A DNA stretch of 46,697 bases from positions 1 through 46,697 of IMG/VR virus record IMGVR_UViG_3300009529_001231. One strand, written 5' to 3'. Position 1 is the stretch's first letter; each line of letters begins with the position of its first letter. Origin of the DNA: a virus. The notes below the pieces were generated by a model, which had not been told where the DNA came from, made no database searches, and was given only the letters and a program-made list of their open reading frames with translations. A program made the translations under genes and the position numbers. Below are positions 9,453 to 45,978 of the stretch, one piece after another.

Positions 9453-9484
9453 CCTTACCTCAATTTTCTCTCTCAAATGGCGGT

Positions 9485-22438: not shown

Positions 22439-22832
22439 AGAGTTTCACCCATGCCAGATATCTGCCATCCTGGTCTTCTGACGCACTAGGGATATTGTTA
22501 ATACCGAGTTTCTCTAGTTTTGCCGTCCACCTTTCATCTTGCGCGTTGGGAAAATCCTCGGGCACCGTGTCAAGTTCCGATCCCAATAATATAATCATAT
22601 CCGTCAGCTTTTCAGTTAGTTTGAGGTCAAAGTTCTCTGTAGCTGCAACATAATCAGGATCATTGGGGTTGGGTTCCTCCCTCTCCTTGCTCTCAATGTA
22701 GACTACAGGCACACTGGGTCGCTCTAGTTCCATCATCGCCTTGACTCTGTTAAAGGCGAATGGAGACACATCGACCACCTTAAATACGACTCCCGTACTC
22801 AACTGGATTTTACCGTCTTTCACCTCATGCAT
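22317..22832 (-). CDS. tail assembly chaperone, first frame (gpG-like), 171 aa
   Basis: Sits between the tail tube and the tape measure genes, as tail chaperones do. The start has AGGAGGAAT upstream. The product is helical and acidic in the middle (EKLTDMIILLGSELDTVPED) and ends in FRGTKKR. UUU-C at 22337-22340, in the overlap with the next frame, is a plausible +1 slip site. Confidence 0.75.
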   Translation of the reverse strand: MHEVKDGKIQLSTGVVFKVVDVSPFAFNRVKAMMELERPSVPVVYIESKEREEPNPNDPDYVAATENFDLKLTEKLTDMIILLGSELDTVPEDFPNAQDERWTAKLEKLGINNIPSASEDQDGRYLAWVKLCAMRTFEDYSSLLVACSRSAGVTEEDVAEAASSFRGTKKR

Positions 22833-24366: not shown

Positions 24367-24656
24367 TGTTTTGCCTCCCTATAAATATTTTTGATTTTCA
24401 GCACATCAACGCGGAATATTGCTTTGAGTGCTGCTTCTATTTCCGCTGGCCTTCGCCGCACATCAGCCAGTGAAAAGAGTTTCCTATCGAATAATTGGTT
24501 ATTCAAAAAAACCTCCAATTCGATAGGCAGTCCAAGTTCATCAAGCACCGGGGGACCGATAATCACACCACTCTCTGGCATGTCTTGGTAATCCTCCGGC
24601 AATTCAACGAGGTATTTTCTCCCCTCCTCATCTTTGTATTCTATTCTAACCAGCAT
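24363..24656 (-). CDS. hypothetical head-tail region protein, 97 aa
   Basis: Mixed beta and alpha sequence (VRIEYKDEEGRKYLVELPED, DVRRRPAEIEAALKAIFR). Position between connector and tail tube fits a head-closure or tail-terminator protein, but no motif decides this. Overlaps both neighbours by 1-4 bases. Confidence 0.65.
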   Translation of the reverse strand: MLVRIEYKDEEGRKYLVELPEDYQDMPESGVIIGPPVLDELGLPIELEVFLNNQLFDRKLFSLADVRRRPAEIEAALKAIFRVDVLKIKNIYREAKQ

Positions 24657-25927
24657 TAGTATCTTACTGGCGAAGCCAGTCTCCTATCTGGCTCTTTGAT
24701 CATGTTCCAAACCAATTGAGCTGCCCGTGATGTGCCCAACGGATTATTGAGAACATTATCCGATAACTGAAAATTCGAACCCTGTGATGTCTGGCGAGCC
24801 ATATCCTCCCGCCAGAGGTCCGATACTCCTTTAATGGGAGCACAATCGCAGATATCCCTGTCGAGAAGAGCTAACGTGTAAAAGGCAACTGCCCTCTCCC
24901 ATTGCGGGTCCATCTGAAGCATCGGTCTATCCCGAGACATATCCCTCAGACCAGCACGATAATACATTAAAAGTTGATCGGGGTTTCTGCTACATTGTAA
25001 GTTCTCGGCAGTCCACTCCTCATCGGTGTCATCATAACTCGCTGCTCGGTACATCAACCACCCTGCCTCATAATTCTTGGGCATGAGGCAACCTGTTTGG
25101 CTACCCTGCCCACAGACAGGGCAACAGGTGGTGTTTGTGCCGCTACATCCACAGTTAAACAAATTCGGGTCCCAGATAAGCGTTACCTGAGTAGCCGGGT
25201 TATTATACCTTCGATAGACATCAACTGTGGTCAGGAAATGAGTTTGAACGGCACCGTTAGCCGCCACTACCGCCTCTGGGTCAAGAGCCTCTATCAAGTT
25301 TGGAAGAACGAGTTGGTGTTTCCACATCGTTATCGTGGCTATTCCAGCAGATATCGTGACGGCGTTTAGAGGTCTCACTTCCCATTCATCGGCACCCCCT
25401 TCCCCAGGGTAAAAGACAGCCAATTCCTCAGGGTCGGTAACTGTGGTGGCAAAAGATATTGTTGCCGTCTCCCAGAATGTATCACCATCCTCGGAGCTGT
25501 AAGTGACTGCCACAGCACTACCATTTGGTTCTATTGTCTTTGCTTGTTCACCAGCCTCTACAAAGTGTCCCCATTTTGCTCTCACCGCAAGGTGATACCC
25601 TCTTGGGTCATAGCTAGAGAATCGCAACAGTTCAGGATTACCCGGCTTTGGCGTTCTGGTTCTCTCTGCTGATTCCCAAGTCGGTAATAACTTATAACCA
25701 AGATATTGGGCTATTGTCCTCTCCGCTTGCTGGATGGCATCCGCCACATCATATCTTCCTACCTGGTCAGCTTCTTGCCAGGAATACTGTTTCCAGACTT
25801 TAGAACAAGTCCTCTGTGGTGTCTCGGAGGTCGTAACTTGGCGGAAGTGCCTTGGATCAAGGCCTATTATCTCAGCCCACCTATCGATGGGAAGTAGAGT
25901 TCTTGGTAGATTCCTGTGCCTTGTCAT
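24656..25927 (-). CDS. head-tail connector/adaptor-like structural protein, 423 aa
   Basis: An adaptor-like helix (DAIQQAERTIAQYLGYKLLP) near residue 65, beta-rich middle, and a Cys cluster (CGCSGTNTTCCPVCGQG) at about 270-285 that may bind metal. Located just before tail genes. GTG-ATG-ATG at its 5' end offers three starts; the third is best spaced from AGGAGG. Identity is a positional inference. Confidence 0.6.
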   Translation of the reverse strand: MTRHRNLPRTLLPIDRWAEIIGLDPRHFRQVTTSETPQRTCSKVWKQYSWQEADQVGRYDVADAIQQAERTIAQYLGYKLLPTWESAERTRTPKPGNPELLRFSSYDPRGYHLAVRAKWGHFVEAGEQAKTIEPNGSAVAVTYSSEDGDTFWETATISFATTVTDPEELAVFYPGEGGADEWEVRPLNAVTISAGIATITMWKHQLVLPNLIEALDPEAVVAANGAVQTHFLTTVDVYRRYNNPATQVTLIWDPNLFNCGCSGTNTTCCPVCGQGSQTGCLMPKNYEAGWLMYRAASYDDTDEEWTAENLQCSRNPDQLLMYYRAGLRDMSRDRPMLQMDPQWERAVAFYTLALLDRDICDCAPIKGVSDLWREDMARQTSQGSNFQLSDNVLNNPLGTSRAAQLVWNMIKEPDRRLASPVRY

Positions 25928-25936
25928 CATCACCTC

Positions 25937-26224
25937 CTATGAAGCTACGATTTCAATGAAGTTATCAAACAGATTATTCACGCCAAGGTGAACCCACCGA
26001 TAGGCATTATTCAAGCCGATATGATTGCGTCCCCCTGACTCAGAGACCATCAATTCGTCATCCAATTCTCGCCAGGCATATTCGTCATTGCTACCCCACA
26101 AGACATATGTTGCAGCCCCAGCACTCCAGACATAGAATTCCACATTGGTTCGCCCCTCGGTATCAAGACTTACACCAAGAGGTCCACCAACACTAGAACC
26201 CATATTCTGAACTGGTAGTCCCAT
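25937..26224 (-). CDS. hypothetical virion protein, 95 aa
   Basis: Contains a compact beta pattern (TNVEFYVWSAGAATYVLWGS...WRELDDELMV...YRWVHLGV), like small beta-sandwich decoration or fibre domains. Between DUF1360 and the connector. Not recognised beyond that. Confidence 0.6.
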   Translation of the reverse strand: MGLPVQNMGSSVGGPLGVSLDTEGRTNVEFYVWSAGAATYVLWGSNDEYAWRELDDELMVSESGGRNHIGLNNAYRWVHLGVNNLFDNFIEIVAS

Positions 26225-26225
26225 A

Positions 26226-26534
26226 TCAACCTCTTACCCTTTCTATTATTATACCACCTGTTGACAAGGCGAGTATCCAGACGATTACCGGAGCCACGAT
26301 CCAGAGTCCATAAACTGCTCCTGCCATCCAGACACTCATGCACCAGATACAGGTGAATAGTTTTGCCAGCGTGTTATCCGGTATCTGAGCTACCGTCCCA
26401 TCATCATGATGCTTCACGCCGAACAATCCCCGTATCCTTTTGAATATATCAAAGGGACCATCCTCGGACACGAACATACTAGCCAACCTCCAAGTGGCTA
26501 GAACCATGATTAATAGTTCCCACAAGTCAACCAT
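26226..26534 (-). CDS. DUF1360 family membrane protein, 102 aa
   Basis: Matches the DUF1360 pattern: N-terminal helix TWRLASMF, SEDGPFDIFKRIRGLFG, then FTCIWCMSVWMAGAVYG and a second hydrophobic segment (VIVWILALSTGGIII). Predicted two to three membrane spans, with a CIWC pair. Known from many phages without an assigned role; its position between glycan genes and connector suggests an envelope function. Confidence 0.8.
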   Translation of the reverse strand: MVDLWELLIMVLATWRLASMFVSEDGPFDIFKRIRGLFGVKHHDDGTVAQIPDNTLAKLFTCIWCMSVWMAGAVYGLWIVAPVIVWILALSTGGIIIERVRG

Positions 26535-29225
26535 TTATCTCCCCATGACCGCTTCCATAACTGGCTTAGAGCTGTCATTCTCTATCGGCCCGGTGTTTGA
26601 TATTATGAAGTTCTTCCCCATTGCCAGAAACCCATCAAGATCAGTGTTGTAAATGAACTTCCTTCTGTGAGATGGCGTGTTTCCAAAGATATATTTAACA
26701 CCAGTCCCTTTGCCAACCCACTGTGATTTGCCACCGCCTCCGATGTACTCAATAAGAGTCATCTCATCCCGCGACCTTTCAATCGCCGCTTGAGGAGGCG
26801 GTGGAGCTGGATTCGCCCGTCTTCTACTACCACATCCTGAACATCCCATTATAAGCCTCTCCTTCCCGGCTGTGCCGTTATCAAATACATCAGGCCATTT
26901 GATTCGCATGACCTCTTTGCTCTCTTCCTTGCTGGCCATATCCTTCTCGCGGCGCAATCCGGTTGTTTTTCTGTATGTGAAAAGCGGTTTTGCTATCTTC
27001 ACAGCACAAATGCCCTTCATCGCATATGCTATCTGGAAGTCCCAGTCCTCCCAGGATTTCATATTGACATCAAACCCTCCAACCTTTTCCCATGCCGCCT
27101 TCGCATACATCGCACAACTGGCATGGATACAGCCCTTGCTTACCAACAAAGATGGGTCCCAATCTGGTGGGTTCCAAATCTTAGTATCACCATCTGCCTT
27201 CTCATCCCACCACTGCGAATAAACAACGCCGCCTTCTTCAGACCAGACAGACCACATGTCTTTGAGGCAGTCGGGTTCTAAGATATCATCGGCATCAAGA
27301 CAAACAAATGCAGCCGTCTGAGATTCAGATATTCCATAGTTGCGAGCTGCCGCTGGTCCTTCCTCACCTTTCGTATTGATCATCTTAACCCAGGGATGAG
27401 GAACCATCAATTCCTTTCCTGTATCGTTCACGACAATGCAGCGCCAATCGCGGAAGGTTTGCCCCTCAATGGAATCCAAGGCATCAATAACCAATTTATG
27501 GTGCCCAGGTCCAACAGGAATCACAACGCTTACCTTTGCCGGCTCACAGGATGGCACTGGCCATGCCTTACCCCTCTGCGGAGGAGGTTTGGCAGCAACA
27601 CCCCAAGGAACGAGTCTCGCATCCCGGGCCCACGGAAACCATGATGTCCAATCTGGTTCGGTTTCGCCTCGGCTCTTACTGTCAGGTCGGTATCTATAAA
27701 TATAAGTCACCGATTCAGTTACTTTCTTAGGCAAGAATCCATAAGACACTGCTCTAGTCCAGAACTCGGCATCCTCCGAAACCTTTGCCCTGTCACGATA
27801 GCCACCGGTTCTCTCAAAGACCTCCCTACGGCATAAGCATGTACTCGGTATCTGGTTCTTATGCTGGAATTGAGACAAGCAGTTAAATTCTGGAGGCCAC
27901 CTTGATATGCCGTCGTCGGTGCCGGTTACCGGGTCAGGAGTCACGCCGTCCTCTAGCACGAACTTTATCCTGCCATATGCTATATGGATTGCCCTGTCAT
28001 TATCAAGCGCATCCGACAATATCTTCAGCGTGTTGGGTGGTAGCATATTGTCGGGATCAAGATTCATCACATAGCGTCCTCGAGCATGTTGGAATCCATA
28101 ATTCAAAGCCCCCGGTAACTTCAGATTCGATTCTGTCCTTATAACCTTTATCCTGTCATCAAGGTCGGCTATCAATTTGGCTCTGGCGTACGAATCATCT
28201 CCAGAGCAATCATCAACGATTATGAGTTCCCAGTTCTTTAGCGTCTGCTTCTGAACACTCTTAACCATATCTGGAAGTAGATGTCCCAGGTTATAGCAGG
28301 GTGAGATTATGCTAACCTTCGGCGCACGCTTCAAGCCCTGCTGCCTGTCATAGACAGTCTGATATAATTTGGCATAGGACGCCATAACCTTATCCCACGT
28401 AAACCTCTCCAGAACGAGTTGCCTCCCCGTTTCCCCAACCTGCTCTCGATGCTGGAGACACCAAACTAGACCTTCCCTCAGGTGCTCATAATCGCCTACC
28501 GGAGACAGCCAGCCAGTCTTTTCATGTTCAATCACCTCAGCCTGCCCTCCCCACCTCCAACCCAATACAGGAACGCCGCAGGCCATCGCTTCCAATGTAC
28601 CTATGCCAAAGGTCTCCCGTGTCGTTGCTAGATAAACCCCGGCATGACGAATATAGTTCATTGCTTCTTCAAATGTCTTCTTGCCAGTCACATGAACGTT
28701 AGAGGCCATCCTGCCAAATGTGGAAATGAACTGAACATCAGGTGATCGGAGAGCCAATTCATTTACTGGAGTCGGGTTGGCTATAGGGTCAATTCTAGCT
28801 TTATTCCAGAGTACATATCCATGGTTTTCCGCAGGTTCCCAAATACCTGGGTCTATCCCATGATTAAGAACAGCGGGTGTTATCCATGTACCCCTCTTGA
28901 TTGCATAAGCCACCCATTCACTCGGGGCCGTGGTAGAGTCGCATCGTCTTATCGCTTCAGCGACGGCGTTATTTACGCGAGCTCCCCACCCAGGCCATTC
29001 ATACTCAGCCCAATATAGACCGTGACAGTGGACAACCCATGGCATACCGACTGGAATATCAGGTATCTCAGCGGCATGAGTAGCAACAATATCAGCAATC
29101 CCTATCCTGTCTACTATCTCAAAGCCGTAGGCAGGCAGGTATTTGACCTGAGCCTCCACAACTCTCCTGATACCGCCATCACCCTTGTCTGGTTTATCAT
29201 ATATTGGGATAATCATTAACTTCAT
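26535..29225 (-). CDS. three-domain glycosyltransferase with extra C-terminal domain, 896 aa
   Basis: Residues 1-295 are GT4-type (DGGIRRVVEAQ, HCHG, ETFGIGTLEAMACGVPV, GGQAEVI). Residues 303-520 are GT2 (VSIISPCYN, DLDPDN near 390, EDAEFW at 484). Residues 563-755 are a second GT2 (VSVVIPVGPG, LDADD near 645, SWEDWDF). After 792 comes a Cys pair (GCSGCG), Pro-rich linker and about 70 residues with EYIGGGG...WVGKGTGVKYIFG, similar to small phage proteins. Three catalytic domains could build successive linkages. Starts in ATGA overlap. Confidence 0.85.
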   Translation of the reverse strand: MKLMIIPIYDKPDKGDGGIRRVVEAQVKYLPAYGFEIVDRIGIADIVATHAAEIPDIPVGMPWVVHCHGLYWAEYEWPGWGARVNNAVAEAIRRCDSTTAPSEWVAYAIKRGTWITPAVLNHGIDPGIWEPAENHGYVLWNKARIDPIANPTPVNELALRSPDVQFISTFGRMASNVHVTGKKTFEEAMNYIRHAGVYLATTRETFGIGTLEAMACGVPVLGWRWGGQAEVIEHEKTGWLSPVGDYEHLREGLVWCLQHREQVGETGRQLVLERFTWDKVMASYAKLYQTVYDRQQGLKRAPKVSIISPCYNLGHLLPDMVKSVQKQTLKNWELIIVDDCSGDDSYARAKLIADLDDRIKVIRTESNLKLPGALNYGFQHARGRYVMNLDPDNMLPPNTLKILSDALDNDRAIHIAYGRIKFVLEDGVTPDPVTGTDDGISRWPPEFNCLSQFQHKNQIPSTCLCRREVFERTGGYRDRAKVSEDAEFWTRAVSYGFLPKKVTESVTYIYRYRPDSKSRGETEPDWTSWFPWARDARLVPWGVAAKPPPQRGKAWPVPSCEPAKVSVVIPVGPGHHKLVIDALDSIEGQTFRDWRCIVVNDTGKELMVPHPWVKMINTKGEEGPAAARNYGISESQTAAFVCLDADDILEPDCLKDMWSVWSEEGGVVYSQWWDEKADGDTKIWNPPDWDPSLLVSKGCIHASCAMYAKAAWEKVGGFDVNMKSWEDWDFQIAYAMKGICAVKIAKPLFTYRKTTGLRREKDMASKEESKEVMRIKWPDVFDNGTAGKERLIMGCSGCGSRRRANPAPPPPQAAIERSRDEMTLIEYIGGGGKSQWVGKGTGVKYIFGNTPSHRRKFIYNTDLDGFLAMGKNFIISNTGPIENDSSKPVMEAVMGR

Positions 29226-29965
29226 GCTGGCACCTTTTGGTTGTTCATTTTGTCATCGAATTCTTTAGCCGCTTGTTCCCTGGTGAGGCGTCGGTTCTCT
29301 ATCGCTTCCCTATAGGAGTAGCCATCTCCAATATGGTCACAGATATCATACCTTAACCAAGCAGGCCACACTATGTCAGGGCCACCATTGGCATTAAATG
29401 AATCTTGGTAGCCCAATTCGGTAATACCTGGCGTGTAACCTTCTCTGTAGATTCCATAAGCCTCATGAAATCTCCTGTGCCTCAAGGCTGCGTGACCAGT
29501 CCATGCCCACTGGTCTTTGCTCTTGTCAAGCAGCCACCATAGTCTATCGCCACCAACTATAACGCGACCATGGAGACCTTCCGATAGTCTCCCCAGTCTG
29601 ACCATTCCAACCTGTTCATTTTCCTGAAGAAGCCGGACACATGGAAAGAGTTCAATATCCATGTTTGGCACCCAGTCATCTTCCCAATGAAGCCACATAT
29701 CTGCTCTTTCAAGGCATCTGGCTATCCCCTCGTTCATGCTCTTGCCAACACTATGGCCACCGGTGTTGGAGGTCGATACTTCGTAATCGGGGCCTATCTC
29801 TTCCGTGAGTTTCTGGATGTGGTCCCCATTGCTGCCATCATCAGCGATATGGAAACCAAGATTCGGATATTGAATCCTCTCCTTGATGCCTCGGATAGCT
29901 TGCTTGGCAACATCCGTGCGTTCATAGGTTATTATCAGTGCTATTACTAGAGGATAATGGGTCAT
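29222..29965 (-). CDS. family 2-like glycosyltransferase, 247 aa
   Basis: GT-A features: ALIITYERTDVA at the N-terminus, HIADDGSNG (40-47 region), and the metal-site-like WEDDWVP near residue 94. It is a homologue of the protein at 33437: both share GMVR-x-G, LLDK, HxRFxEAYG and GPDIV. Acts on an activated sugar in the cytoplasm. ATGA overlaps at both ends. Confidence 0.8.
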   Translation of the reverse strand: MTHYPLVIALIITYERTDVAKQAIRGIKERIQYPNLGFHIADDGSNGDHIQKLTEEIGPDYEVSTSNTGGHSVGKSMNEGIARCLERADMWLHWEDDWVPNMDIELFPCVRLLQENEQVGMVRLGRLSEGLHGRVIVGGDRLWWLLDKSKDQWAWTGHAALRHRRFHEAYGIYREGYTPGITELGYQDSFNANGGPDIVWPAWLRYDICDHIGDGYSYREAIENRRLTREQAAKEFDDKMNNQKVPA

Positions 29966-30642
29966 ACCTTCTTAGCCCTCGGTTTCCTTTTTGGTTTTGG
30001 CGGTTGTACTAGTGGTGGACCCTCATCCCTCAAGTCCCAAACAATCCATGCTGGCTCATAATCGTCTCTTACATCATGGGTCTTGGAAAGCATGTCCCTG
30101 ATTGGAATCATCAATTCTGACCCCTCATGGTGAAGGTGGAATTGAACCATAAGATAAACGAATTTCTGGATGAGTTCATTCTGGACAAGATGAGGCAAGA
30201 GCTTGAATTCATAACCTTCACAATTGATGAGGCACAAGTCCACCTTGTCAATCTTGGCCATCTTCAGGAACTCCTCCACTTCCATGAGCCGACCACTACC
30301 ATGTGGTTCCTCGAAAGTGCTTTCATCCCCGTCTTTCCCAGCTAACCGATGGACAAAACTGCATCTATCAGTCCCCACACGAGAGAGCGGGAATTCACCC
30401 GATTCTATCCCGAGGCCAAAACTGTGAACCTGCACCTTCTTTTTAGCCGCAAACATCTCGACCAATCGTACTGCCATATCGTACTGGGGTTCAAAGATGT
30501 GGACATGACAATTATACTTATCGACATAGTATTTGGCATGGGCTCCAGCCCATCCTCCCACGATGAACACCATACTTTCCTTCGTCAAAGGAAACTCCTG
30601 AATGCTATCCGGTACTCTTAGAGATATTAATTCCTGGGTCAT
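29962..30642 (-). CDS. FkbM-family SAM-dependent methyltransferase, 226 aa
   Basis: MVFIVGGWAGAHAKYY-type motif I, HIFEPQ (acidic residue binding SAM ribose), SRVGTDRCSFVH and LCLINCEGYEFKLL (the FkbM D-x-E-G-x-E-like block, here NCEGYE) identify the family, which O-methylates sugars and other small molecules. A basic Pro/Lys tail (KPKRKPRAKK) ends it. Presumably methylates a glycan hydroxyl. Coupled by ATGA on both sides. Confidence 0.8.
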   Translation of the reverse strand: MTQELISLRVPDSIQEFPLTKESMVFIVGGWAGAHAKYYVDKYNCHVHIFEPQYDMAVRLVEMFAAKKKVQVHSFGLGIESGEFPLSRVGTDRCSFVHRLAGKDGDESTFEEPHGSGRLMEVEEFLKMAKIDKVDLCLINCEGYEFKLLPHLVQNELIQKFVYLMVQFHLHHEGSELMIPIRDMLSKTHDVRDDYEPAWIVWDLRDEGPPLVQPPKPKRKPRAKKV

Positions 30643-31673
30643 TTGTCAATCCTCCATAATGTTCTCGGAACTCCATGTTCCGGTGCCGTGACTATCTCCT
30701 TAAACGTTGCTCCAGGAACTAAGGCGAACACATCCTCCTGTGTCTTGAGCCATTCGAGACCTGTCCTATCACCCCACATCTGAGTCTCGAAGAATACACA
30801 ACCAGCCTCATTGACCATTCTATTTAATAGTCTGGTTGGCTCTTCCCTTCCCAGATGTTTGACAAGGTGAGAGAACGTATCCATAAACAGGATAACATCA
30901 TAATTAAAACTAGGCCAATTCATCACATCTGCCTGAACGAATCTAATATTTGATATGCCGTCCCAGATAGTCCTTGCGATATCAATAGAATTCTCACCAC
31001 TACGAAATCCACCGGTATCTATTCCAGTGATCTTCATCATCTCGGCAGCAGCCCAAGCACAGAAGTCACCCTGAAAACAGCCGGCATCTAAGAGTGTTTT
31101 TCCTCTCATGGGTAGACTGCACTCGAATGAACCAATTAGATTACCATGGATCGGCCCCCATCTTCGACAAAGCCTGTTAGGGTCGGATAGGCCAGGATTA
31201 GCTACCCACCTTTGAATATCTGTAAATAGCCAGTAGGCGTCAGTCAGATGACTCTTACCTGGGGGCTTCTCATCGATAAAATGTGTCTCCCACCAATCAA
31301 TAAAGTAGGGCTTTTTATTCTTGATGATGATATTGTTGCCGTTCAAATCGCTATGCCTCAGATTCATTTGTCTCAATTTAATCAGACACTTCACCAGTTC
31401 ACGATTGAAGTCCTTCCAATCATCGGCATCGAAACCCCAGACACCATCGGATTCCCCAAGGTCTTCCATAAGTATGGATTCCCTCTTTTCTCCCAATAAG
31501 GATGGGGAAAATCCAGAACCTTCCATTATCCTCAATTTCTCAGCAGCATTATGGATGGCTCGGTTGACTTCCTTGAAACGCTCATTGCCATCCTCGCGGT
31601 GTGCGCATATCAATATGCCCGCGTCTGTCCGATAGCCTCTGAGCCCTCGTAACCTGTGAATGAGCTTCATCAT
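30639..31673 (-). CDS. kinase-methyltransferase fusion, WbdD-like in function, 344 aa
   Basis: The N-terminal half is a small-kinase fold: HSDLNGNN (His107, Asp109, Asn114) is the catalytic loop and FIDWWE (Asp126) the metal-binding Asp. The second half is a class I methyltransferase with LLDAGCFQGDF (194-204), TGIDTGG and FVQADVMNW. A kinase joined to a methyltransferase recalls WbdD, which phosphorylates the end of an O-antigen and methylates the phosphate to stop growth, but there the methylase comes first. Substrate here is inferred only from the neighbouring glycan genes. Confidence 0.75.
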   Translation of the reverse strand: MMKLIHRLRGLRGYRTDAGILICAHREDGNERFKEVNRAIHNAAEKLRIMEGSGFSPSLLGEKRESILMEDLGESDGVWGFDADDWKDFNRELVKCLIKLRQMNLRHSDLNGNNIIIKNKKPYFIDWWETHFIDEKPPGKSHLTDAYWLFTDIQRWVANPGLSDPNRLCRRWGPIHGNLIGSFECSLPMRGKTLLDAGCFQGDFCAWAAAEMMKITGIDTGGFRSGENSIDIARTIWDGISNIRFVQADVMNWPSFNYDVILFMDTFSHLVKHLGREEPTRLLNRMVNEAGCVFFETQMWGDRTGLEWLKTQEDVFALVPGATFKEIVTAPEHGVPRTLWRIDK

Positions 31674-32359
31674 ACCTGCACCTTGATTCTATTTGTTTTC
31701 TCCGTCCAAGTCGGTCTCTTCCAAGCACCCGTCAAATAGGTTCGTACAGTGAATATCGGTCCCTGCATAGGACCACTCTTCGCAGTGATACTCTCTTGAT
31801 GCCGCCGAGTCCAATAGGGAGGTCGCTCCGATTCAACGTGGATTAGATGACCGGCATCGGAATGAACAAGCATAATCGATATCAGAATACTATCGCAGGC
31901 ACCGACAGATGCCTCAATCGGAAATCCACCGCAGCGTTGCCACAATGTCTTGGTTACCATGGCGCCGCCACAGGCTGCCGCTTGCTGCTCCCCATCATTA
32001 TATTCGACATCGCACCAGTAGTATCCCAAGGGATCGCGGTACTTCTCCCATGCCCTCAGGCAATCCTCCACAGCATTCGGAAAGAATTTATCATCAGAAC
32101 CAATGAACATAACCAATTCATTCTTTGCCAATGCGACCCCAAAGTTGTTGCTATGAGCACAACCTGACAACCATGGGTTCTTGTGAATGGTTATCGGCAA
32201 GTCACCATAGTTTAACTTCGTTTTCTCCAGATTAGCCATATCATCGACCAGAAGAACTTCGCTTGGTAGTACAGTCTGTTCCTTGATGCTCTCAAGAAGC
32301 TCCTGGAAGTATCTCTTATGTACGAGGTCAGGTCCGACTGGAACGACTATCGTAATCAT
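31670..32359 (-). CDS. family 2 glycosyltransferase, 229 aa
   Basis: Typical GT2 start ITIVVPVGPDLVHKRYFQEL, LLVDDMAN (nucleotide site), LVMFIGSDDKF (DxD-like near residue 92) and GGAMVTKTLWQRCGGF. Cytoplasmic transfer of a sugar to a growing glycan. Ends with ATGA overlap to the kinase-methyltransferase gene. Confidence 0.82.
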   Translation of the reverse strand: MITIVVPVGPDLVHKRYFQELLESIKEQTVLPSEVLLVDDMANLEKTKLNYGDLPITIHKNPWLSGCAHSNNFGVALAKNELVMFIGSDDKFFPNAVEDCLRAWEKYRDPLGYYWCDVEYNDGEQQAAACGGAMVTKTLWQRCGGFPIEASVGACDSILISIMLVHSDAGHLIHVESERPPYWTRRHQESITAKSGPMQGPIFTVRTYLTGAWKRPTWTEKTNRIKVQV

Positions 32360-32602
32360 TCAACCTCCTTTTTGACCTTCAATCCACCGCCTGCCCCAAT
32401 GAAAATGCCCTTCAAGATAGCCAAACAGATAGATGCACCAGAAGATTAGTACACCTGTCCAGCCTAGCCAGATAAAGATACTTACGCCAATAAAGAACCA
32501 AAGTATCTGAATGACTATTGGGGCAAGATGGTATATGTCCCTCCAAATAAAAGTCCACGGACGCCCGCCTATCTTACTCCAAAGCCATTTATAGGGATTC
32601 AA
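32360..32602 (-). CDS. small membrane protein, 80 aa
   Basis: Two hydrophobic spans (HLAPIVIQILWFFIGVSIFI and TGVLIFWCIYLFGYL) with many Trp. A TTG start follows GAGGAGG at good spacing and overlaps the acyltransferase by 14 bases. May anchor or help export the glycan machinery. Unrecognised. Confidence 0.72.
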   Translation of the reverse strand: MNPYKWLWSKIGGRPWTFIWRDIYHLAPIVIQILWFFIGVSIFIWLGWTGVLIFWCIYLFGYLEGHFHWGRRWIEGQKGG

Positions 32603-33446
32603 AAGTAAACCTCCTCGGCTCTATCGACTCAAAGAATCCGCCTCCATAGAATCCGAACCCATTACGCCTCAGGAAGTCGCGGAAGTCCTCAGCGTATTTA
32701 CTGATATTGTCAAAGGGGCGAAACTTCCTCTCCCGAGGGGAGAATAAAACCTTCTCACCCTCATATCTAAACGTGATTATGCAATCCTTAGCCACTGAGA
32801 CATCGGGGTTGAAACCCTTGTCTTCTGCAATCTCCATGTACTGATTGCATAATCGATTCAATTCCTCTAATAAATCATCATCGCTTATTGATGCCGGATA
32901 TACATTCTCCTTGATCACTTTGGCTGGTTTCCCCACGGCAACACATCCCTTTGGAAGACTTTTATTTACAAGAGAACCCATGCCCACAACTGTATAATCA
33001 CCGATTGTAACACCTGGCATAACTTGGCACCGAGATGGTAACCAGACCTCATTTCCTATAACCACGGGTTCCTGCTTCTGCTTCGGGTATCCATCCACAA
33101 CAGGTTGCCAAACACCATGAGTCCATACCTGAGTCCCATAACCGAAGGCAACATGCTCTCCTATGGTTACAGACTCGGCACAGTTGATGAATGAACCCTC
33201 GGCTATCAATGACCTCTCTCCTATTTCGACATTAGAATTGAGACCATTGCAACCACCACCACCGATTTGAACTCCCTCTCCGATATAGCAATGACGACCA
33301 ATATAGAGGGAACGGCACCTAGCTTTGAAGCCTGGTAATATCATGGCATACTGACCGATAGAGACAAAATCAGAGGCCACAATTTCAGCATCGTTGGCTA
33401 TCTTGGTATCTGGGTGAATCCGTATATTCTGGGATTCTATTCGCAA
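32589..33446 (-). CDS. left-handed beta-helix acyltransferase-like protein, 285 aa
   Basis: Hexapeptide repeats of the LbH fold run from about 8 to 180 (IHPDTKIANDAEIVASDFVS, VTIGEHVAFGYGTQVWTHG, VVIGNEVWLP, VTIGDYTVVGMGSLV), closing with PKGCVAVGKPAKVI. Acyltransferases of this fold acetylate sugar O- or N-groups. The last 100 residues are an added helical/beta domain. TTG start behind GGGGAGG. Confidence 0.82.
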   Translation of the reverse strand: MRIESQNIRIHPDTKIANDAEIVASDFVSIGQYAMILPGFKARCRSLYIGRHCYIGEGVQIGGGGCNGLNSNVEIGERSLIAEGSFINCAESVTIGEHVAFGYGTQVWTHGVWQPVVDGYPKQKQEPVVIGNEVWLPSRCQVMPGVTIGDYTVVGMGSLVNKSLPKGCVAVGKPAKVIKENVYPASISDDDLLEELNRLCNQYMEIAEDKGFNPDVSVAKDCIITFRYEGEKVLFSPRERKFRPFDNISKYAEDFRDFLRRNGFGFYGGGFFESIEPRRFTFESL

Positions 33447-34138
33447 GGTTCAACCTCCCCGAGGTCTAAAATCCTCATGTGGTGCCAAGGTTGTATCACT
33501 GCATAGACAATATCGGGACCTGGGCTATCACACATATGAACATTGTATTTCCGTTCACACTCCACAGCGCTATCGCCTTCACTGAAGTAACCATATGCTT
33601 CAAAAAACCTCTCGTGATATAGGGCCGGTCTCATCCCAAAGGCAAAGTCATGCTTATCGAGGAGCAGCCCCCAGCCCTCAGGATAGTTGACAATCTTTCC
33701 AGTCAGTCCTGGATGTGGTGGCCCAATCCTGACCATTCCAATTGACTCATCACGGAGAAGCAATGCCACCCATGGATTCAAGTCTATCTCCTGTTCTAAA
33801 AACCAATCATCCATGATGTACATCGCAAATGGGGAATCAATAAAGACATTTGCAAACCCCTGATTGAGGGATGCCCCAACACCCTTGCGATTCTGCCAAC
33901 TATTAGTCAGCCTTGGCATTGGAGGCCGTCGGCGTTGCCAAATTAATCCGAGTTCCTCTAGAAAATCGGGAAGCCTTGTGCCATCGTCAGCTATATGCAG
34001 ACCAAGGTTCCCCCTATATTTCAGGTTCTCAGCCCATGATTCAATACAATGCTTAAGAGAAGCCAATCGATCAATCCCCTTTTGACTTGTTGGATAATAG
34101 GTTGTGGCCACGATATTCACTCTTGGCAAGTCACTCAC
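33437..34138 (-). CDS. family 2-like glycosyltransferase, paralogue of the 247-aa enzyme, 233 aa
   Basis: Shares with the 29222 gene the LGLHIADDGT block, MDDWFLEQEIDL near the metal site, GMVRIG, LLLDK, HERFFEAYG and GPDIV. The GTG start overlaps the formyltransferase stop by 8 bases. The two copies probably attach different sugars or use different acceptors. Confidence 0.78.
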   Translation of the reverse strand: MSDLPRVNIVATTYYPTSQKGIDRLASLKHCIESWAENLKYRGNLGLHIADDGTRLPDFLEELGLIWQRRRPPMPRLTNSWQNRKGVGASLNQGFANVFIDSPFAMYIMDDWFLEQEIDLNPWVALLLRDESIGMVRIGPPHPGLTGKIVNYPEGWGLLLDKHDFAFGMRPALYHERFFEAYGYFSEGDSAVECERKYNVHMCDSPGPDIVYAVIQPWHHMRILDLGEVEPCE

Positions 34139-34796
34139 ATCTCGCTCCTGTCAGATATAATCGTTTACCATCACCACATTTTATGTAGGCATTAGGATAG
34201 GGGCTCTGAAGTCCTCTGATTTTGTTGTAGAGGTACCGAGCTGTGGCGTAGTTTAATTCATCTTGGCTGATTTCACTTTCATCCGGACTTCGCCGTTTGA
34301 ATTTCGTGGCTTCCCCCTCCTGAGGCCAGAACTTCAACGTCTGATTCTGAACCTCCCTGACTATCCGCAGTGTCTCGAAACTGGCTATCTCCACCACAGA
34401 ATCAAGTATTTCCCACATATTGCCTTCTAAGGAGAAGGGAACTTGAGCACATAGGTCTCCACCATCCACTTCCTTGGTCATTTTGAATATCGATACAGCA
34501 CTTTCTATTTCGCCGTTCATTATCTGATTCTGGAGTGGACTACCGCCCCGATACTGCGGTAACCTGGAAGGATGAAGCCCGAGACACAGATATTTCTGTG
34601 TTATCTCCTCCGGTACTTTCCAACTCCAACCATAGAAGAGAACCAACACAGGGTCATGCTGAGTGAATGGTTCCAAGGATACGTCTTCCTTGCTCTTTAA
34701 CACCATGAGATCAATCCCAGGCCATTTCTTAACCTTCTCCATGATGGTAAGAGCCCAACCCCGGTACCCGCAACCGATCATCCTCATTCTATCCAT
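34131..34796 (-). CDS. formyltransferase-family protein, 221 aa
   Basis: The folate-dependent formyltransferase signature LHPSRLPQYRGGSPL (74-88) with His75 and a later EVDGGDL (Asp111) are visible. Sugar N-formyltransferases and Met-tRNA formyltransferase use an Asn-His-Asp triad; here the Asn two residues before His appears to be Gly73, so activity may be altered. Location after a PIG-L deacetylase suggests formylation of a freed sugar amine. ATG follows GAGGTGG. Confidence 0.72.
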   Translation of the reverse strand: MDRMRMIGCGYRGWALTIMEKVKKWPGIDLMVLKSKEDVSLEPFTQHDPVLVLFYGWSWKVPEEITQKYLCLGLHPSRLPQYRGGSPLQNQIMNGEIESAVSIFKMTKEVDGGDLCAQVPFSLEGNMWEILDSVVEIASFETLRIVREVQNQTLKFWPQEGEATKFKRRSPDESEISQDELNYATARYLYNKIRGLQSPYPNAYIKCGDGKRLYLTGARCE

Positions 34797-35413
34797 CTGG
34801 CCACCTCAAATGCTTCGGCATATTCCATGCCTGACTGCATCCCCCTCACAGTAGCTATAGCCTTGACATGATTGGGTGTGCGGTGGCCACGCATCTGCGT
34901 CTGGTATATGTTCATAATCTTGATCTTCTTGTCGATATCCAAGGGTCGGTAGTAATTAGGACGGAAGGCATCAGGCTTGCGGAGTGTCCCAAAGGTTTCT
35001 GGCTCCTCATAGAGTAGAATACGTTTGACAAAATAGTTCCTGTCATGTGGACGCATGGCAGTCAATGCCGCATCATAGACGGCTCGGTGGTCTTGATTGT
35101 AAGATGGGCAAGGAACCAAGACAATATCTGGTTGGTATTCGTTGATACCCTTCTCGAATTCATCAATCAGTCCAGACTGCCCCAATCTGTCCAGGACATT
35201 TGTTTGGCCATGGTGGGGATTCATGAACACTGGTTTGAAGTTGATGGCCTCGGCAAGTTTCTTCTGCTCCGTAAGATTCTCGCCGTCCGGGAAGAGAGGA
35301 TGCAAAGACGTAACATAGACAATCACAAGTTCTCTATCAGTCGTATCTAGATAGCTACAGCAACCATAGACTTCATCATCCGGATGGGGAGCTATTATCA
35401 TAACCTTATCCAT
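34784..35413 (-). CDS. PIG-L/LmbE-family N-deacetylase, 209 aa
   Basis: N-terminal MIIAPHPDDEVYG (His10, Asp12-Asp13) and YNQDHRAVYDAALTA near 115-128 supply the zinc ligands of the family, which removes acetyl from N-acetylglucosamine-type sugars. Start ATG overlaps the previous TGA (TGATG). Likely acts on the nucleotide sugar or glycan before formyl or acyl transfer. Confidence 0.85.
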   Translation of the reverse strand: MDKVMIIAPHPDDEVYGCCSYLDTTDRELVIVYVTSLHPLFPDGENLTEQKKLAEAINFKPVFMNPHHGQTNVLDRLGQSGLIDEFEKGINEYQPDIVLVPCPSYNQDHRAVYDAALTAMRPHDRNYFVKRILLYEEPETFGTLRKPDAFRPNYYRPLDIDKKIKIMNIYQTQMRGHRTPNHVKAIATVRGMQSGMEYAEAFEVARWIE

Positions 35414-36222
35414 CAAAATGCCTCGCCGTTTATCATTGTGCCCACAATTCCCTTAAATCTTCCCCTCAATTCATCTATCTGAACTTCTATAGTTGGCACG
35501 ACAATGTGATATCGCTTCTCTGTCCTCAAGCGGTGGTCTTCCACTGGTTTATTGATTGGAATGATATTTAACCCCAGCTTGAAAGCCTCATTTGCTGCCA
35601 TGAGGATATCATATTTTGTTGTGTCTTTGCCAAATAGATGAACGATTCCAGTGACATCTTTGATAGCAAAATCGATTATATTTTGAGCTGCATAGGATAC
35701 AGTCAGACCATTCCACAATGAGTTCACGTAGCCATAGACTTCTCCTTCTTGAGATGTCAACCAAGAAAGCAGCCCACGCTTCCCGAATCCAATGAATGAA
35801 CATCTTGTGGTCAGGTGAGGAGGCCGGTCTATTTCACCTTGAATTTTAGATTTGCCATAGATGTCTAAAGCATTCGGCTTGTCGGATTCCACATGAGGTT
35901 TATCACCATTGAAGACACAATCGGTGGATGACTGAACCATCTTTATTCCGTGATGGTCGCACAGTGCAGCTAATTTGGCTGGCCCCTCGCCATTGACTGC
36001 ATAGAAAGTCTTTGAATTATTATCGCTTCTACCCCGGACTATACCAGCACAGTTTATCAAGATGTCAGGTTTTTCCCCGCTTAGTACGCTCTCAACGGTT
36101 CCCATATCTGTGATATCCAATTCCTCATGGGACTTGGCGACCATAGATATGCCAACCCCTCGACCCTTGTTGACTATCTCCTTCCCGAGCATACCGGTTG
36201 CGCCAGTGACTAAGATTTTCAC
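35413..36222 (-). CDS. RmlD-like dTDP/UDP-sugar reductase, 269 aa
   Basis: Rossmann motif TGATGMLG (7-14), the NCAGIVRGR loop, SSTDCVFNGD and YGKSKIQGE (catalytic Tyr-x3-Lys) place it in the RmlD/extended SDR group, which reduces 4-keto sugars. The GTG start overlaps the dehydratase stop (GTGA), matching a dehydratase-reductase pair for a 6-deoxy(amino) sugar. Confidence 0.82.
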   Translation of the reverse strand: MKILVTGATGMLGKEIVNKGRGVGISMVAKSHEELDITDMGTVESVLSGEKPDILINCAGIVRGRSDNNSKTFYAVNGEGPAKLAALCDHHGIKMVQSSTDCVFNGDKPHVESDKPNALDIYGKSKIQGEIDRPPHLTTRCSFIGFGKRGLLSWLTSQEGEVYGYVNSLWNGLTVSYAAQNIIDFAIKDVTGIVHLFGKDTTKYDILMAANEAFKLGLNIIPINKPVEDHRLRTEKRYHIVVPTIEVQIDELRGRFKGIVGTMINGEAF

Positions 36223-37184
36223 TCTGGAGCCTCCTGCATCATCTTGATAGCATCTTCTCTGCGTAGATACCTATCAGGGACTTCTGAATTGTATCGTTCA
36301 TCATAGTTTAACTGAACGTGTGTCGTTAATGGATGTAATCTCATTATGGTGATATCATCAATAAAGCCGTATTCCTCAGCATACGGAGCTTCGACAGTTC
36401 CCATTAAATCCTCGTGCATCTTCTCACCGAACCGCACCCCAACCGTCTCAAATTCCACATCACCAATATTACCATCAAACTCAATGGATGCCGCCGCCTT
36501 TGCCACATCCATCATATTCAGCGATGGCAACCGAGGAATGAGTATCGTGCCACCTTCTGTTTCCTCTAAAGCTATAAGAATAAGACCCACCCCTTGGTCT
36601 ACTGTCAGCCAAAACCTACTCATCTCAGGGTTGGTGATAAGCACTCGTTTATTCTCGCGGGCCTGCCTGCGGAAGATAGGGATGGCGCTACCGGTACTCG
36701 ATACCACATTCCCATATCGGACTAGATTAAACTGTGTCTCCCCCTTGGCATCGGCCTCTTGGAAAAACCGCTCCATCATGAGCTTGGTCATACCATACAT
36801 ATTAATCGGCTGACAGGCTTTGTCTGTTGATATCCCTACGACTCTTTCAACTCCCATCCTCATAGCAGCTCTAGCCACATTGATGGACCCGAGAGTATTG
36901 ATAGCGTGGCATTCCATAGCATTGGTCTCGCCTTGGGGAACATACTTGAAGGCCGCAGCATGGACAACGGTATCATGACCTGCCATGGCCAGTTCAACAG
37001 AATCATAGTCCCGGATATCACCTATCACATACCGATGGTCGGGAAATTCCTTTTGGCATCGAGAATGCTTGCCATGGTCCCGACTGAAAATAGTACAACG
37101 AACATCCGGCTCTCCTTTTGCCAATGTCCGAAGCAACGCTCTACCGAGGTAACCCGCCCCGCCGGTGATGAATAGATTTCTCAT
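36219..37184 (-). CDS. PseB/CapD-type nucleotide-sugar 4,6-dehydratase, 321 aa
   Basis: GGAGYLG (8-14), VHAAAFKYVPQGETN, ISTDKACQPINMYGMTK (STDKA and YxxxK) and FRSRQ-like FRRQARENK followed by MSRFWLT are family signatures of UDP-GlcNAc 4,6-dehydratases (PseB, CapD, WbjB/FnlA). It starts the pathway to a 6-deoxy amino sugar. The ATG at 37184 with GGAGAG upstream is chosen over a longer frame running through the GC hairpin. First gene of the cassette. Confidence 0.87.
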   Translation of the reverse strand: MRNLFITGGAGYLGRALLRTLAKGEPDVRCTIFSRDHGKHSRCQKEFPDHRYVIGDIRDYDSVELAMAGHDTVVHAAAFKYVPQGETNAMECHAINTLGSINVARAAMRMGVERVVGISTDKACQPINMYGMTKLMMERFFQEADAKGETQFNLVRYGNVVSSTGSAIPIFRRQARENKRVLITNPEMSRFWLTVDQGVGLILIALEETEGGTILIPRLPSLNMMDVAKAAASIEFDGNIGDVEFETVGVRFGEKMHEDLMGTVEAPYAEEYGFIDDITIMRLHPLTTHVQLNYDERYNSEVPDRYLRREDAIKMMQEAPE

Positions 37185-37203
37185 GCCAATCTCTCCTTTA
37201 ACG

Positions 37204-37245: not shown

Positions 37246-37284
37246 ACTGGTCTGCTTAATCTTTCAGCCTTTAATCAGCTCAGA

Positions 37285-38742
37285 CTATAGCGGCCAGCTA
37301 GATTCACTGGTGTCACCACCGTCTACGAAGTATGTGTCATCACCAGGGAACGGTGTCCTCTCATGTTGCAGCGGGTTATACCGGACATTCTGGATACGTC
37401 CAGCTAACTGCGGGGTCCGGAGGATTAGCCGTGGCCTGATGGTTCCCCTCGCCTTCAAGCAGGAAGCGGTGCGGGCATTTGACCAGAACCACATACCGTT
37501 ATCGGTTGTCCAGACACCACCACCTTGTCCGCCGGTATGGAACCAGTCCAGTGTCGGGTTCATCTGGGGATTATTGAACTGGAAGAATTCCATGAAGGTT
37601 ACCGGAGCCCCGGCAGCCCTTAGCGGAATCAGATAGATGTCAGAGGCCATCTGGCCGGCGGGGATATTGGCGTTGTCGCCATTGGTCTCCTCAACTATAC
37701 CAACATCGGTGATTACCGGGATTTCGACTCCCTCTATCGGGAGCACTCCCAACTGGCGTAGCCTGTCCCTCTCCCTCACCATCTCTGTGCCGTTAATCTG
37801 CGTCTGCTGAGTTGCAGCGGTGGTCACATTGCACCCGAAAGTGCTATAGCGACATGGCCAGAGCTGACTGAGTTCATGGAAGAGACTCGGCCTCATAGCC
37901 AGCACCCACTCCACCGGCATCATCCCTGTCGTCTCGGCCAGTCTCTTTACGAAGTGGTACATAGCCGAGATGACCCCAACGATATCAGCCGGATTGGTCG
38001 TGGTGATTAGCTGGTAGTTGAAGTCCTTCAGGTCAGAATCCAGAGATGGGCAGCTGGTCTGGGTGATCGAATCGGCATAGCCAGTGGTGATTAACAAGTC
38101 GAAGCCGTTGAACGGTACGAAGCCGGTACCTACTGCATTGGCCACGTTTCCGTTCCACACCATCTGGGCGATGGCTCGGGATACTGAAGTTCCATACTCT
38201 AGCAGGAGTTTGGTGAGTTCAAGATTGAGACTCCTGTTGGGAGGCACGCCTTCGGGAGCCATGCTATCAATTCCCAACAAGTTCATCAACTGGAGATCCA
38301 TCGGGTCGGAGCGGTTCACCCGCTGCCCTATTCTCTCCAATTGGATTTCTCGGGTTTCACGGCATATGCGACCGAAGGGCGATTCCAAGGTGCAACCCTT
38401 GAGTAACCCCGGCTGAACACAGTCAGCGCATATAGTCGAGGGTTCGCTTCCGGTATCGGCCTGTACGCCGGTGAGTGTCTCATAGTATGGGTTGTCGAAG
38501 ACAGAGGGGTTCTTGGGTAGTATGCCAAGCATCCCTGGCTCTATCCCGACAATAGTTGAGAATACCTTCGGGTCGAGTCCGGGCATAGTCAGGATTCCGC
38601 CTGTGCCATGGAAATACTGAGCATTTGGGGTTCCACTGGCATCATGCTTGAATCCTCTCTGCAAGTCCTCTTCCTTTAAGGCATCCATTATAGCCTGCCC
38701 AAGCCTTTCTTTTGTTGAAACGCCTGCATAGTTCATTTGCAT
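37285..38742 (-). CDS. major capsid protein, 485 aa
   Basis: The large protein immediately downstream of the protease/scaffold fusion. HK97-type features include an N-terminal helical arm (STKERLGQAIMDALKEEDLQ), a P-domain-like ERIGQRVNR and helix VSRAIAQMVWNGN, and a beta-rich C-terminus. Several Cys near residues 104-130. The ATG at 38742 has AAGGAG only two bases away; ATG at 38736 is equally good. Sequence is too divergent for certainty on fold. Confidence 0.85.
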   Translation of the reverse strand: MQMNYAGVSTKERLGQAIMDALKEEDLQRGFKHDASGTPNAQYFHGTGGILTMPGLDPKVFSTIVGIEPGMLGILPKNPSVFDNPYYETLTGVQADTGSEPSTICADCVQPGLLKGCTLESPFGRICRETREIQLERIGQRVNRSDPMDLQLMNLLGIDSMAPEGVPPNRSLNLELTKLLLEYGTSVSRAIAQMVWNGNVANAVGTGFVPFNGFDLLITTGYADSITQTSCPSLDSDLKDFNYQLITTTNPADIVGVISAMYHFVKRLAETTGMMPVEWVLAMRPSLFHELSQLWPCRYSTFGCNVTTAATQQTQINGTEMVRERDRLRQLGVLPIEGVEIPVITDVGIVEETNGDNANIPAGQMASDIYLIPLRAAGAPVTFMEFFQFNNPQMNPTLDWFHTGGQGGGVWTTDNGMWFWSNARTASCLKARGTIRPRLILRTPQLAGRIQNVRYNPLQHERTPFPGDDTYFVDGGDTSESSWPL

Positions 38743-44914: not shown

Positions 44915-45013
44915 TCAATAAGTGACTAGACCGATTATAGTAAAAAGAATTGTTCCTACTACCCAAGCCCAAAACATCACACATGCGCCCCGAAGGGCTC
45001 TAAGTTTCTTCAT
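44915..45013 (-). CDS. single-span membrane micropeptide, 32 aa
   Basis: ATG at 45011-45013 follows CAGGAGGCAAA and overlaps the kinase stop (ATGA). After a basic start (KKLRALRG) comes a hydrophobic span CVMFWAWVVGTILFTIIGLV. A typical short transmembrane peptide; might work in lysis or membrane control. Confidence 0.72.
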   Translation of the reverse strand: MKKLRALRGACVMFWAWVVGTILFTIIGLVTY

Positions 45014-45978
45014 TTTGCCTCCTGATAGATAATCCTGCTCCCCTGTTCCTCGCACTTAATCGACAGTTCCTGATACTTGGACATTTGCTTCCGGATAGCT
45101 TCTCGCTTGTCCTCATCACAGTAAACAAGCAGGAAGCCACCACCACCAGCACCACATATCTTGTAACCAGCGGCGCCAGCATTGACGGCATCGGCAATTA
45201 TGTCCGTTATCTCGGGAGTGGTGATATTGCTGGACAGGGTCTTCTTCATTTCCCAGTTGTCTTTGATGAGACTCCCGAATTGGTTATATTTCTCATTGTC
45301 GAGATAGGTCTTGCCCATCAAGGTCAGCTTCAACATCTTCTGAAGGACTTCATTATTGTCGGGAATCTTCTCCTTCTGCTCATCAAGGATTTCACTGGCT
45401 TGGCGTGTTATCCCGGTATAGAATAATAAGGACCGGGCTGCGATTTGCTTGCGAATCCGCCTCTTGAAATGAAAGGCATCTATCCGGTCCTTCTGGAAAG
45501 TGAACGCCCTCATCCCACCATAAGCAGCGATGTACTGATCTTGCTTCCCGATTCCTTTACCCATGATGTCTATCTCGATATTGCAGGCTTCATGGGCCAG
45601 CTTCTCGGCATCCACTTCAATTCCCTGATATCCATAGAACGCATGGAGAAGGCCGACTGTCAAGGTGCTGGAGGACCCGAGCCCAGTTCCTTCTGCGGGG
45701 ATATCTCCCAGGGTGGTTACCTCGATGCCCTTTTCTAATCCGGTAATCATCATGGCAATCTTGATTATCTCGTGTTGGATCTCTTCAGGATTATCAACTG
45801 TTTCCGTCTTAGTATAGTGAAGTACAATCTTATCATCGAACCGGGGCTTCACAATAGCATAGATGTACTTGTCGATGGCCATGCTTATGACCGCCCCATT
45901 GTGCTTATTGTAGAAGTCGGGGAAGTCGGTACCGCCACCGAGGAATGATATGCGCAGTGGTGTCCGCGAGATTATCAC
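45010..45978 (-). CDS. GHMP-family sugar kinase (heptose/fucose kinase-like), 322 aa
   Basis: GGGTDFPDFY near residue 14, PAEGTGLGSSSTLTVGLLHA (about 94-113, the ATP-binding GLGSS) and AAGYKICGAGGGGFLLVY (motif 3) are the three GHMP signatures; closest in pattern to D-glycero-D-manno-heptose 7-phosphate kinases. It would phosphorylate a sugar for nucleotide-sugar synthesis. GTG start in GTGA overlap with the MT-A70 gene. No partner phosphatase or nucleotidyltransferase is visible. Confidence 0.83.
   Translation of the reverse strand: MIISRTPLRISFLGGGTDFPDFYNKHNGAVISMAIDKYIYAIVKPRFDDKIVLHYTKTETVDNPEEIQHEIIKIAMMITGLEKGIEVTTLGDIPAEGTGLGSSSTLTVGLLHAFYGYQGIEVDAEKLAHEACNIEIDIMGKGIGKQDQYIAAYGGMRAFTFQKDRIDAFHFKRRIRKQIAARSLLFYTGITRQASEILDEQKEKIPDNNEVLQKMLKLTLMGKTYLDNEKYNQFGSLIKDNWEMKKTLSSNITTPEITDIIADAVNAGAAGYKICGAGGGGFLLVYCDEDKREAIRKQMSKYQELSIKCEEQGSRIIYQEAK

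Follow-up and report, generated by a model that had tools for sequence, protein, structure and literature searches.

The window analysed here, the whole 46,697-nucleotide (nt) stretch of IMG/VR record IMGVR_UViG_3300009529_001231 (without end repeats), carries a sugar cassette inside its head operon, between the major capsid gene and a putative head-tail connector gene. We consider it fairly probable that this cassette serves to glycosylate the virions of an uncultured lineage of tailed phages, combining a fixed assembler with interchangeable sugar and decoration genes. The assembler would be a triple glycosyltransferase together with a small DUF1360 membrane protein, while the genes ahead of it would be swappable, giving differing coats among relatives. 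The predicted product in the window is probably a 6-deoxy aminosugar with its acetyl group exchanged for formyl and with a phosphate/methyl cap.

Gene Content of the Cassette

Gene families were assigned by Pfam and NCBIfam profile searches of the open reading frames (ORFs) of the window. All the cassette genes, as well as the capsid and connector genes, are on the minus strand. The slot and its two anchors are organised as follows:

37285..38742, minus strand, major capsid protein, upstream anchor of the slot (HK97-fold structure match)
36219..37187, minus strand, PseB-like UDP-GlcNAc 4,6-dehydratase, inverting (PF02719, 1.5e-73)
35413..36222, minus strand, RmlD-like 4-keto reductase (PF04321, 3e-31)
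34784..35416, minus strand, PIG-L family N-deacetylase (PF02585, 2e-10)
34131..34796, minus strand, sugar N-formyltransferase-like protein (PF00551, 1.6e-9)
33437..34138, minus strand, GT2-like glycosyltransferase, paralogue 1 (profile of relatives)
32589..33446, minus strand, left-handed beta-helix (hexapeptide) acyltransferase, O-/N-acetyltransferase type (PF00132, 2.8e-19)
32360..32602, minus strand, hydrophobic ORF of 80 amino acids (aa) (ORF and hydropathy)
31670..32359, minus strand, GT2 glycosyltransferase (PF00535, 1.6e-10)
30639..31673, minus strand, kinase-methyltransferase fusion, putative WbdD-like cap enzyme (weak match for each half alone)
29962..30642, minus strand, FkbM family methyltransferase (TIGR01444, 1e-11, above the NCBIfam cut-off)
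29222..29965, minus strand, GT2-like glycosyltransferase, paralogue 2 (profile of relatives)
26535..29225, minus strand, triple glycosyltransferase, GT4 + GT2 + GT2 + small C-terminal domain (Pfam)
26226..26534, minus strand, DUF1360 small membrane protein (PF07098, 33 bits, cut-off 21)
25937-26224, ORF of 95 aa between DUF1360 and connector
24656..25933, minus strand, putative head-tail connector, downstream anchor (position and conservation in 28 relatives)

A previous sequence-only reading had named most of these genes, and every gene that it named was found in the family it had stated; its list was correct but had overlooked the hydrophobic 80-aa ORF, the 95-aa ORF and a GHMP sugar kinase located outside the slot. 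Its capsid call was borne out by the AlphaFold model (pLDDT 75), whose top PDB matches were HK97-type capsids (E 2.5e-10). The portal/Mu-F protein, the tape measure and the tail proteins that flank the cassette have PHROGs support, and neither the connector ORF nor the 80-aa ORF had a family match in profile searches. The two small GT2-like ORFs, which had been described as paralogues, are 32% identical to each other; neither of them matched Pfam singly, but a profile built from 29 relatives matched the GT2 of chondroitin synthase (4e-13). The PseB-like ORF had been listed with a GTG start at 37247, and the ATG at 37187 agrees with the start in the closest relative.

The near-continuous coupling that had been claimed for these genes was also found. 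From the PseB-like gene to DUF1360 the junctions were, in order, -4, -4, -13, -8, -10, -14, 0, -4, -4, -4, -4, and 0 nt; the gap from DUF1360 to the next gene was +1 nt and the following junction +3 nt, and 97 nt separate the capsid gene from the PseB-like gene behind it. With regard to the claim that there is no internal promoter, promoter-like sites (37 against 27.7 expected from shuffles, standard deviation 5.6) showed no clear excess, which is compatible with it without proving it; terminator-like sites were 14 against a shuffled expectation of 14.4.

A Fixed Frame with Changing Contents

A comparison of related genomes, proposed together with the sequence-only reading, was carried out with about 100 related loci, all of them metagenomic contigs, obtained from IMG/VR searches with the capsid protein and the triple glycosyltransferase. 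The main count was restricted to the loci found by the capsid protein, which avoids selection for the triple enzyme, and near-identical viruses were collapsed in this count alone. The slot was kept while its other contents varied: the triple glycosyltransferase was located between capsid and connector in 24 of the 24 capsid-found loci that reach the connector (21 distinct). Where the triple enzyme was missing from capsid-set loci, the locus was short or its long cassette exceeded the flanking sequence retrieved; in L007 the enzyme turned up some 10 kb downstream of the capsid gene once the whole record was searched.

The first set of relatives was mostly retrieved by the triple enzyme, and its presence in 21 of the 21 complete intervals is partly by construction. 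In these intervals we found protease and capsid genes in 21, DUF1360 in 19 (usually directly following the triple enzyme), PseB in 12, DegT aminotransferase in 7, the GT2 gene of 31670-32359 in 7, RmlD and the kinase-methyltransferase in 5 each, and PIG-L, formyltransferase, hexapeptide enzyme and FkbM in 1 each. The interval ranged from 3.7 to 17.3 kb across relatives. The variable genes between capsid and triple enzyme included reductase or aminotransferase, methyl-, sulfo-, acyl- and formyltransferases and a rhamnosyl O-methyltransferase; among 110 unassigned interval ORFs, Pfam detected Methyltransf_24 (12), Methyltransf_23 (10), DegT (10) and sulfotransferases (3).

The mean pairwise identity of the triple enzyme (0.40) was close to that of the capsid (0.41), and its distances tracked those of the capsid (r=0.85, Mantel p=0.002) and of the connector (r=0.84), with phylogeny not removed. 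Considering that its conservation equals that of the capsid and that the distances co-vary, the triple enzyme behaves as a core gene of the head module, unlike a freely exchanged gene.

The search of the cassette DNA in 50,697 phage records gave no match, and tblastn of capsid and connector against the same records gave none either. The triple glycosyltransferase had only partial matches in the phage records, none covering 80%, and none was found in bacterial genomes. The arrangement is thus absent from the cultured phages of the searched collection. In bacterial and archaeal genomes the capsid search returned 6 contigs in unrelated bins (a proteobacterium, Altiarchaeales, Desulfuromonadales, Saccharibacteria, Anaerolineae, and Gemmatimonadetes), with one virus under two of them; since the six bins disagree, no host can be named.

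Loss of Cassette Genes in the Closest Relative

The closest relative, IMGVR_UViG_3300038314_001501 (L002/L003), has a capsid 84% identical to that of the window. Its slot contains PseB (72%), one GT2-like gene corresponding to paralogue 2 (76%), the triple enzyme (78%) and DUF1360 (78%), and it is without the nine ORFs from RmlD to FkbM save for a remnant of the kinase-methyltransferase. This remnant, located between PseB and the glycosyltransferase gene, is 57 bp long; it matches the 3′ end of the window's kinase-methyltransferase gene with 81% identity (E 6e-9), and the resemblance runs further upstream in the reading frame. As judged from this scar, the kinase-methyltransferase gene was once present in the sister phage and was later deleted while the core was retained; cassette genes were therefore lost in the sister and not merely gained in the window. 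We considered a fresh insertion of the whole cassette in the window and rejected it, because the sister keeps that 3′ end at the junction. FkbM may be a newer arrival, since the remnant directly abuts the next glycosyltransferase gene.

Predicted Sugar Pathway

From the gene content we infer the following scheme, in its substrates, order of steps, timing and acceptor as well as in attachment to the virion. The PseB-like enzyme would dehydrate host UDP-GlcNAc, and the RmlD-like enzyme would reduce the product to a 2-acetamido-2,6-dideoxy sugar. PIG-L would strip the acetyl group, the formyltransferase would add formyl to the freed C2 amine, and the hexapeptide enzyme could acylate the sugar further. 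The small GT2-like enzymes and the triple enzyme would then act in the cytoplasm and attach the sugars to a phage protein made late, most likely capsid or tail-tube subunits, and the kinase-methyltransferase and FkbM would cap and methylate the chain.

The first enzymes of this scheme retain recognisable features. The PseB-like protein matched the NCBIfam PseB model at E 2e-75 with a score of 254, below the equivalog cut-off of 408; it keeps the STDKA...YGMTK active-site motif, and its nearest PDB relative is 2gn4, a UDP-GlcNAc C6 dehydratase (2.6e-59). In the PIG-L enzyme the PHPDDE and DH metal-ligand motifs are retained and there is a resemblance to diacetylchitobiose deacetylase (PDB, 1.9e-5), and the hexapeptide acyltransferase is WcaF/WbbJ-like in NCBIfam. 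Since the reductase route would yield no free amine, the C2 acetyl would have to be removed before formylation. PIG-L and formyltransferase occurred together in 3 divergent loci (window, L028, and L067), always with PseB and RmlD, which fits the exchange of N-acetyl for N-formyl; we found no paper in the open literature describing the two inside a glycosyltransferase gene cluster.

Reductase and DegT aminotransferase tended to replace each other, with both present in 0 of 41 loci (Fisher p 0.008, uncorrected for phylogeny). Strict exclusivity was dropped to this tendency, as L064 in the larger set has a reductase together with a truncated aminotransferase. Relatives in which the aminotransferase takes the place of the reductase would make, according to their genes, a 4-amino sugar.

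It was also possible to see an intein-like insert in the PseB-like dehydratase, at the same site in two different viruses, which begins at the Cys right after STDKA and ends with HN-C. The ORFs concerned are in L023 (690 aa; also L027, L079, and L131) and at L121:12240-14330.

One further sugar gene of the window is found upstream of the portal:

45010..45978, minus strand, GHMP sugar kinase, HddA-like, outside the slot (NCBIfam HddA 4.6e-43, below cut-off)

This kinase is 77% identical in the sister and lies inside the slot in 8 relatives, so that it is probably part of the same sugar system. In the two of these relatives that were checked (L121 and L128) the slot also has a cytidylyltransferase-like protein, and in L128 an epimerase as well, which points to heptose-type sugars as part of the same repertoire. 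Small proteins with PF20274, a cyclic-phosphate-processing receiver domain, were observed near the in-slot sugar kinase (L121:17701-18168, L128:15371-15805, and L117:6926-7495).

Proposed Assembly and Capping of the Glycan

In the triple glycosyltransferase, Pfam detected two GT2 stretches (1e-46) and GT4 (1e-16), and the AlphaFold model (pLDDT 87) presented GT4, GT2, GT2 and a small C-terminal beta domain. Structure comparison likens the tandem GT2 part to the polymerases of chondroitin and heparosan, which are bifunctional; the product of the modelled enzyme may accordingly be a repeating chain or else a trisaccharide of fixed structure.

The C-terminus of this protein (26535-26840) consists of about 100 residues with the Cys motif MGCSGCG, a proline linker and the small beta domain. 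In L028, L029, L030, and L038 a helix-hairpin-helix-like tail is added to it. This C-terminal part could be a docking module; the domain had no match among the other ORFs of the relatives and none in PHROGs.

For the cap, we propose that the kinase-methyltransferase fusion works like WbdD, which adds first a phosphate and then a methyl group to the chain terminus of the E. coli O9a antigen (PMC3482155). The family has invariant HxDL...N...D kinase residues and a SAM motif, and the best PDB profile match of the methyltransferase half was WbdD (4.8e-9).

Probable Target of the Glycan

The sequence-only reading had proposed that a dedicated, decorated sugar is produced alongside the particle, and this agrees with the gene content, the tight coupling and the capsid-connector position in 21 distinct relatives. 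It had left the target between the virion and the host surface. The virion is favoured here, because the triple enzyme is inherited with the capsid and because no gene for export, flippase, polymerase or ligase was seen in about 100 cassettes; the host surface keeps a smaller share of the probability.

If the host surface were the target, enzymes made late would alter an envelope polysaccharide (O-antigen, capsule, or wall polymer) and thereby block superinfection or help the release of progeny. Variable phage glycosyltransferases have been interpreted in this way in pelagimyophages (PMC7029224), and the membrane nature of DUF1360 would agree with it. However, among the 771 cassette ORFs there was no flippase, polymerase, GtrC-like protein, ligase, or ABC transporter. 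Only 1 of the 771 had at least 4 predicted membrane segments, and it has a long charged tail and is not transporter-like; the P22 GtrC control gave 7 segments, and the predictor is crude and undercounts GtrA. The fixed position between capsid and connector and the co-evolution of the triple enzyme with the capsid also speak against a host-surface role, for which P22 gtrABC, by contrast, has its own promoter and polytopic proteins. We regard it as unlikely.

The same absence of carrier and export functions bears on a free or lipid-linked small molecule, or an exopolysaccharide, that is not bound to the particle. The likeness of the tandem GT2 part to chondroitin and heparosan polymerases would suit such a product, and so would the cap, given that the WbdD cap serves the chain-length control of an exported polymer (PMC3482155). 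Nevertheless, neither a lipid-carrier transferase nor an exporter was present among the cassette ORFs examined, and the linkage to the head genes is tight, which leaves this explanation with a slim chance.

A glycan built on modified bases of the phage genome was considered as well, since glycosyltransferases encoded by viruses can add a variety of glycans to DNA as hypermodifications (Pyle 2024, as cited in PMC12619734) and the window carries DNA methylase genes. Against this, PF00303 (thymidylate-synthase/hydroxymethylase) was absent from the window, which is possibly incomplete, and from 21 of 22 relatives, and the cassette is in the head operon, apart from the replication genes. The search for Tet/JBP (PF12851) gave no match, but its control was equally silent. 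Among the explanations weighed we give DNA hypermodification the lowest probability, a very small one. The window genes resembling nucleoside 2-deoxyribosyltransferase (3369-3860), DUF5131 (4798-5604), N6/N4 DNA methylase (7893-9488) and MT-A70 methylase (45975-46535) are possibly a separate DNA-modification set.

As the expectations of the host-surface and DNA explanations were not borne out, the particle would be the remaining co-produced cytoplasmic acceptor. Several points weigh against virion glycosylation. Soluble glycosyltransferases of phages, such as TarP, can modify wall polymers of the host from within the cytoplasm, and soluble GT2 enzymes can use lipid-linked or wall precursors, which counts in favour of the host surface, and TarP was a fold match in the structure comparison of the triple enzyme. 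The kinase half of the fusion had weak matches only, and in the window the kinase precedes the methyltransferase (chain end), the reverse of WbdD, where methyltransferase, kinase and coiled coil follow in one chain. The formyltransferase keeps His and Asp, and the canonical Asn is replaced by Gly (GLHPS); its activity is predicted as likely but uncertain because this Asn is missing, though the closest solved relative, 1zgh (4e-24), is likewise without it, and the substitution is also seen in L028. A cytoplasmic pathway also offers no obvious function for two membrane proteins, DUF1360 and the product of the 80-aa ORF. Finally, the glycan, the late transcript and the modified virion protein are predictions from the genes.

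Other Genes of the Head and Tail Region

A tRNA-Met (CAT) gene was found in the head operon (window 40617-40690), overlapping the 5′ end of the putative protease/scaffold ORF. Because of this overlap, that ORF probably starts later, at MPFEGPND. The tRNA is also in the sister (L002:7989-8062) and not in 7 other relatives tested. The putative major tail protein (22858-24366), so called by its position before a chaperone pair and the tape measure, has YCF48/BNR-type beta-propeller repeats that have been kept in many relatives; it would be unusual for a tail tube to be decorated with propellers. The overlapping small ORFs 22046-22438 and 22317-22832, before the tape measure, have the appearance of a frameshifted tail-assembly chaperone pair.

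Significance and Comparison with Known Systems

Phage virion glycosylation is already known, as are capsid glycan clusters with rare sugars in giant viruses. What would be new is an entire nucleotide-sugar pathway that forms, across an uncultured lineage, a hypervariable slot in the head operon; we found no report in open papers of a tailed-phage lineage with such a slot placed before a fixed triple enzyme. So far phage virion glycosylation has been described in a small number of cultured mycobacteriophages, whose gene sets are small; here it would belong to the core of a widespread uncultured lineage, change fast and include entire pathways for rare sugars. As a tentative extension, to which we give somewhat less than even chances, the virion glycan would be obligatory throughout the lineage, with its assembler in the core head module and its sugar swapped in the manner of an O-serotype, resulting in particle coat serotypes. 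As part of this proposal, and equally tentative, the swapped variants would be aminated or reduced, acetylated, formylated, sulfated, phosphorylated or methylated. If true, environmental tailed phages would have serotype-like coats and be a source of new sugar-modifying enzymes, which raises the question of what selects coat diversity in bacterial viruses.

Among systems acting on the bacterial surface, the O-antigen and capsule loci are like the window in that sugar, transferase and decoration genes are exchanged within a conserved frame, and in their FnlA/PseB- and RmlD-type enzymes and WbdD-like kinase-methyltransferase. The window differs in having no Wzx, Wzy, WaaL, or ABC exporter, its frame being capsid and connector. 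The P22-type gtrABC also places phage glycosyltransferase genes near virion genes; its GtrA flippase, polytopic GtrC and own promoter were not seen in the window.

The fibril-glycan clusters of Megavirinae (PMC10117803) share with the window nucleotide-sugar enzymes and multi-domain glycosyltransferases. They have sulfate-modifying enzymes, are clade-specific, decorate the capsid and make rare 6-deoxy aminosugars. Unlike the window, they belong to giant viruses of eukaryotes, the cluster is outside a head operon and formyl is not mentioned.

With the kind represented by Corndog, Che8, and Myrna, the likeness lies in phage-encoded glycosyltransferases. Che8 has its glycosylation genes outside the virion operon, unlike Corndog and the window; Corndog has also a methyltransferase and, as in the window, both are in the virion operon, where an O-methyltransferase and three glycosyltransferases lie between portal and protease (PMC4351075). 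Glycans on the capsid and tail tube of Corndog were later proven (Freeman 2023, as cited in PMC12363180 and PMC12619734), whereas the glycan of the window is predicted from its genes. The Corndog cassette consists of four genes with no sugar-making genes named and occupies a different slot, while the window has a dehydratase-reductase-deacetylase-formyltransferase pathway and a triple enzyme, in a slot that extends from capsid to connector and whose contents turn over throughout the lineage.

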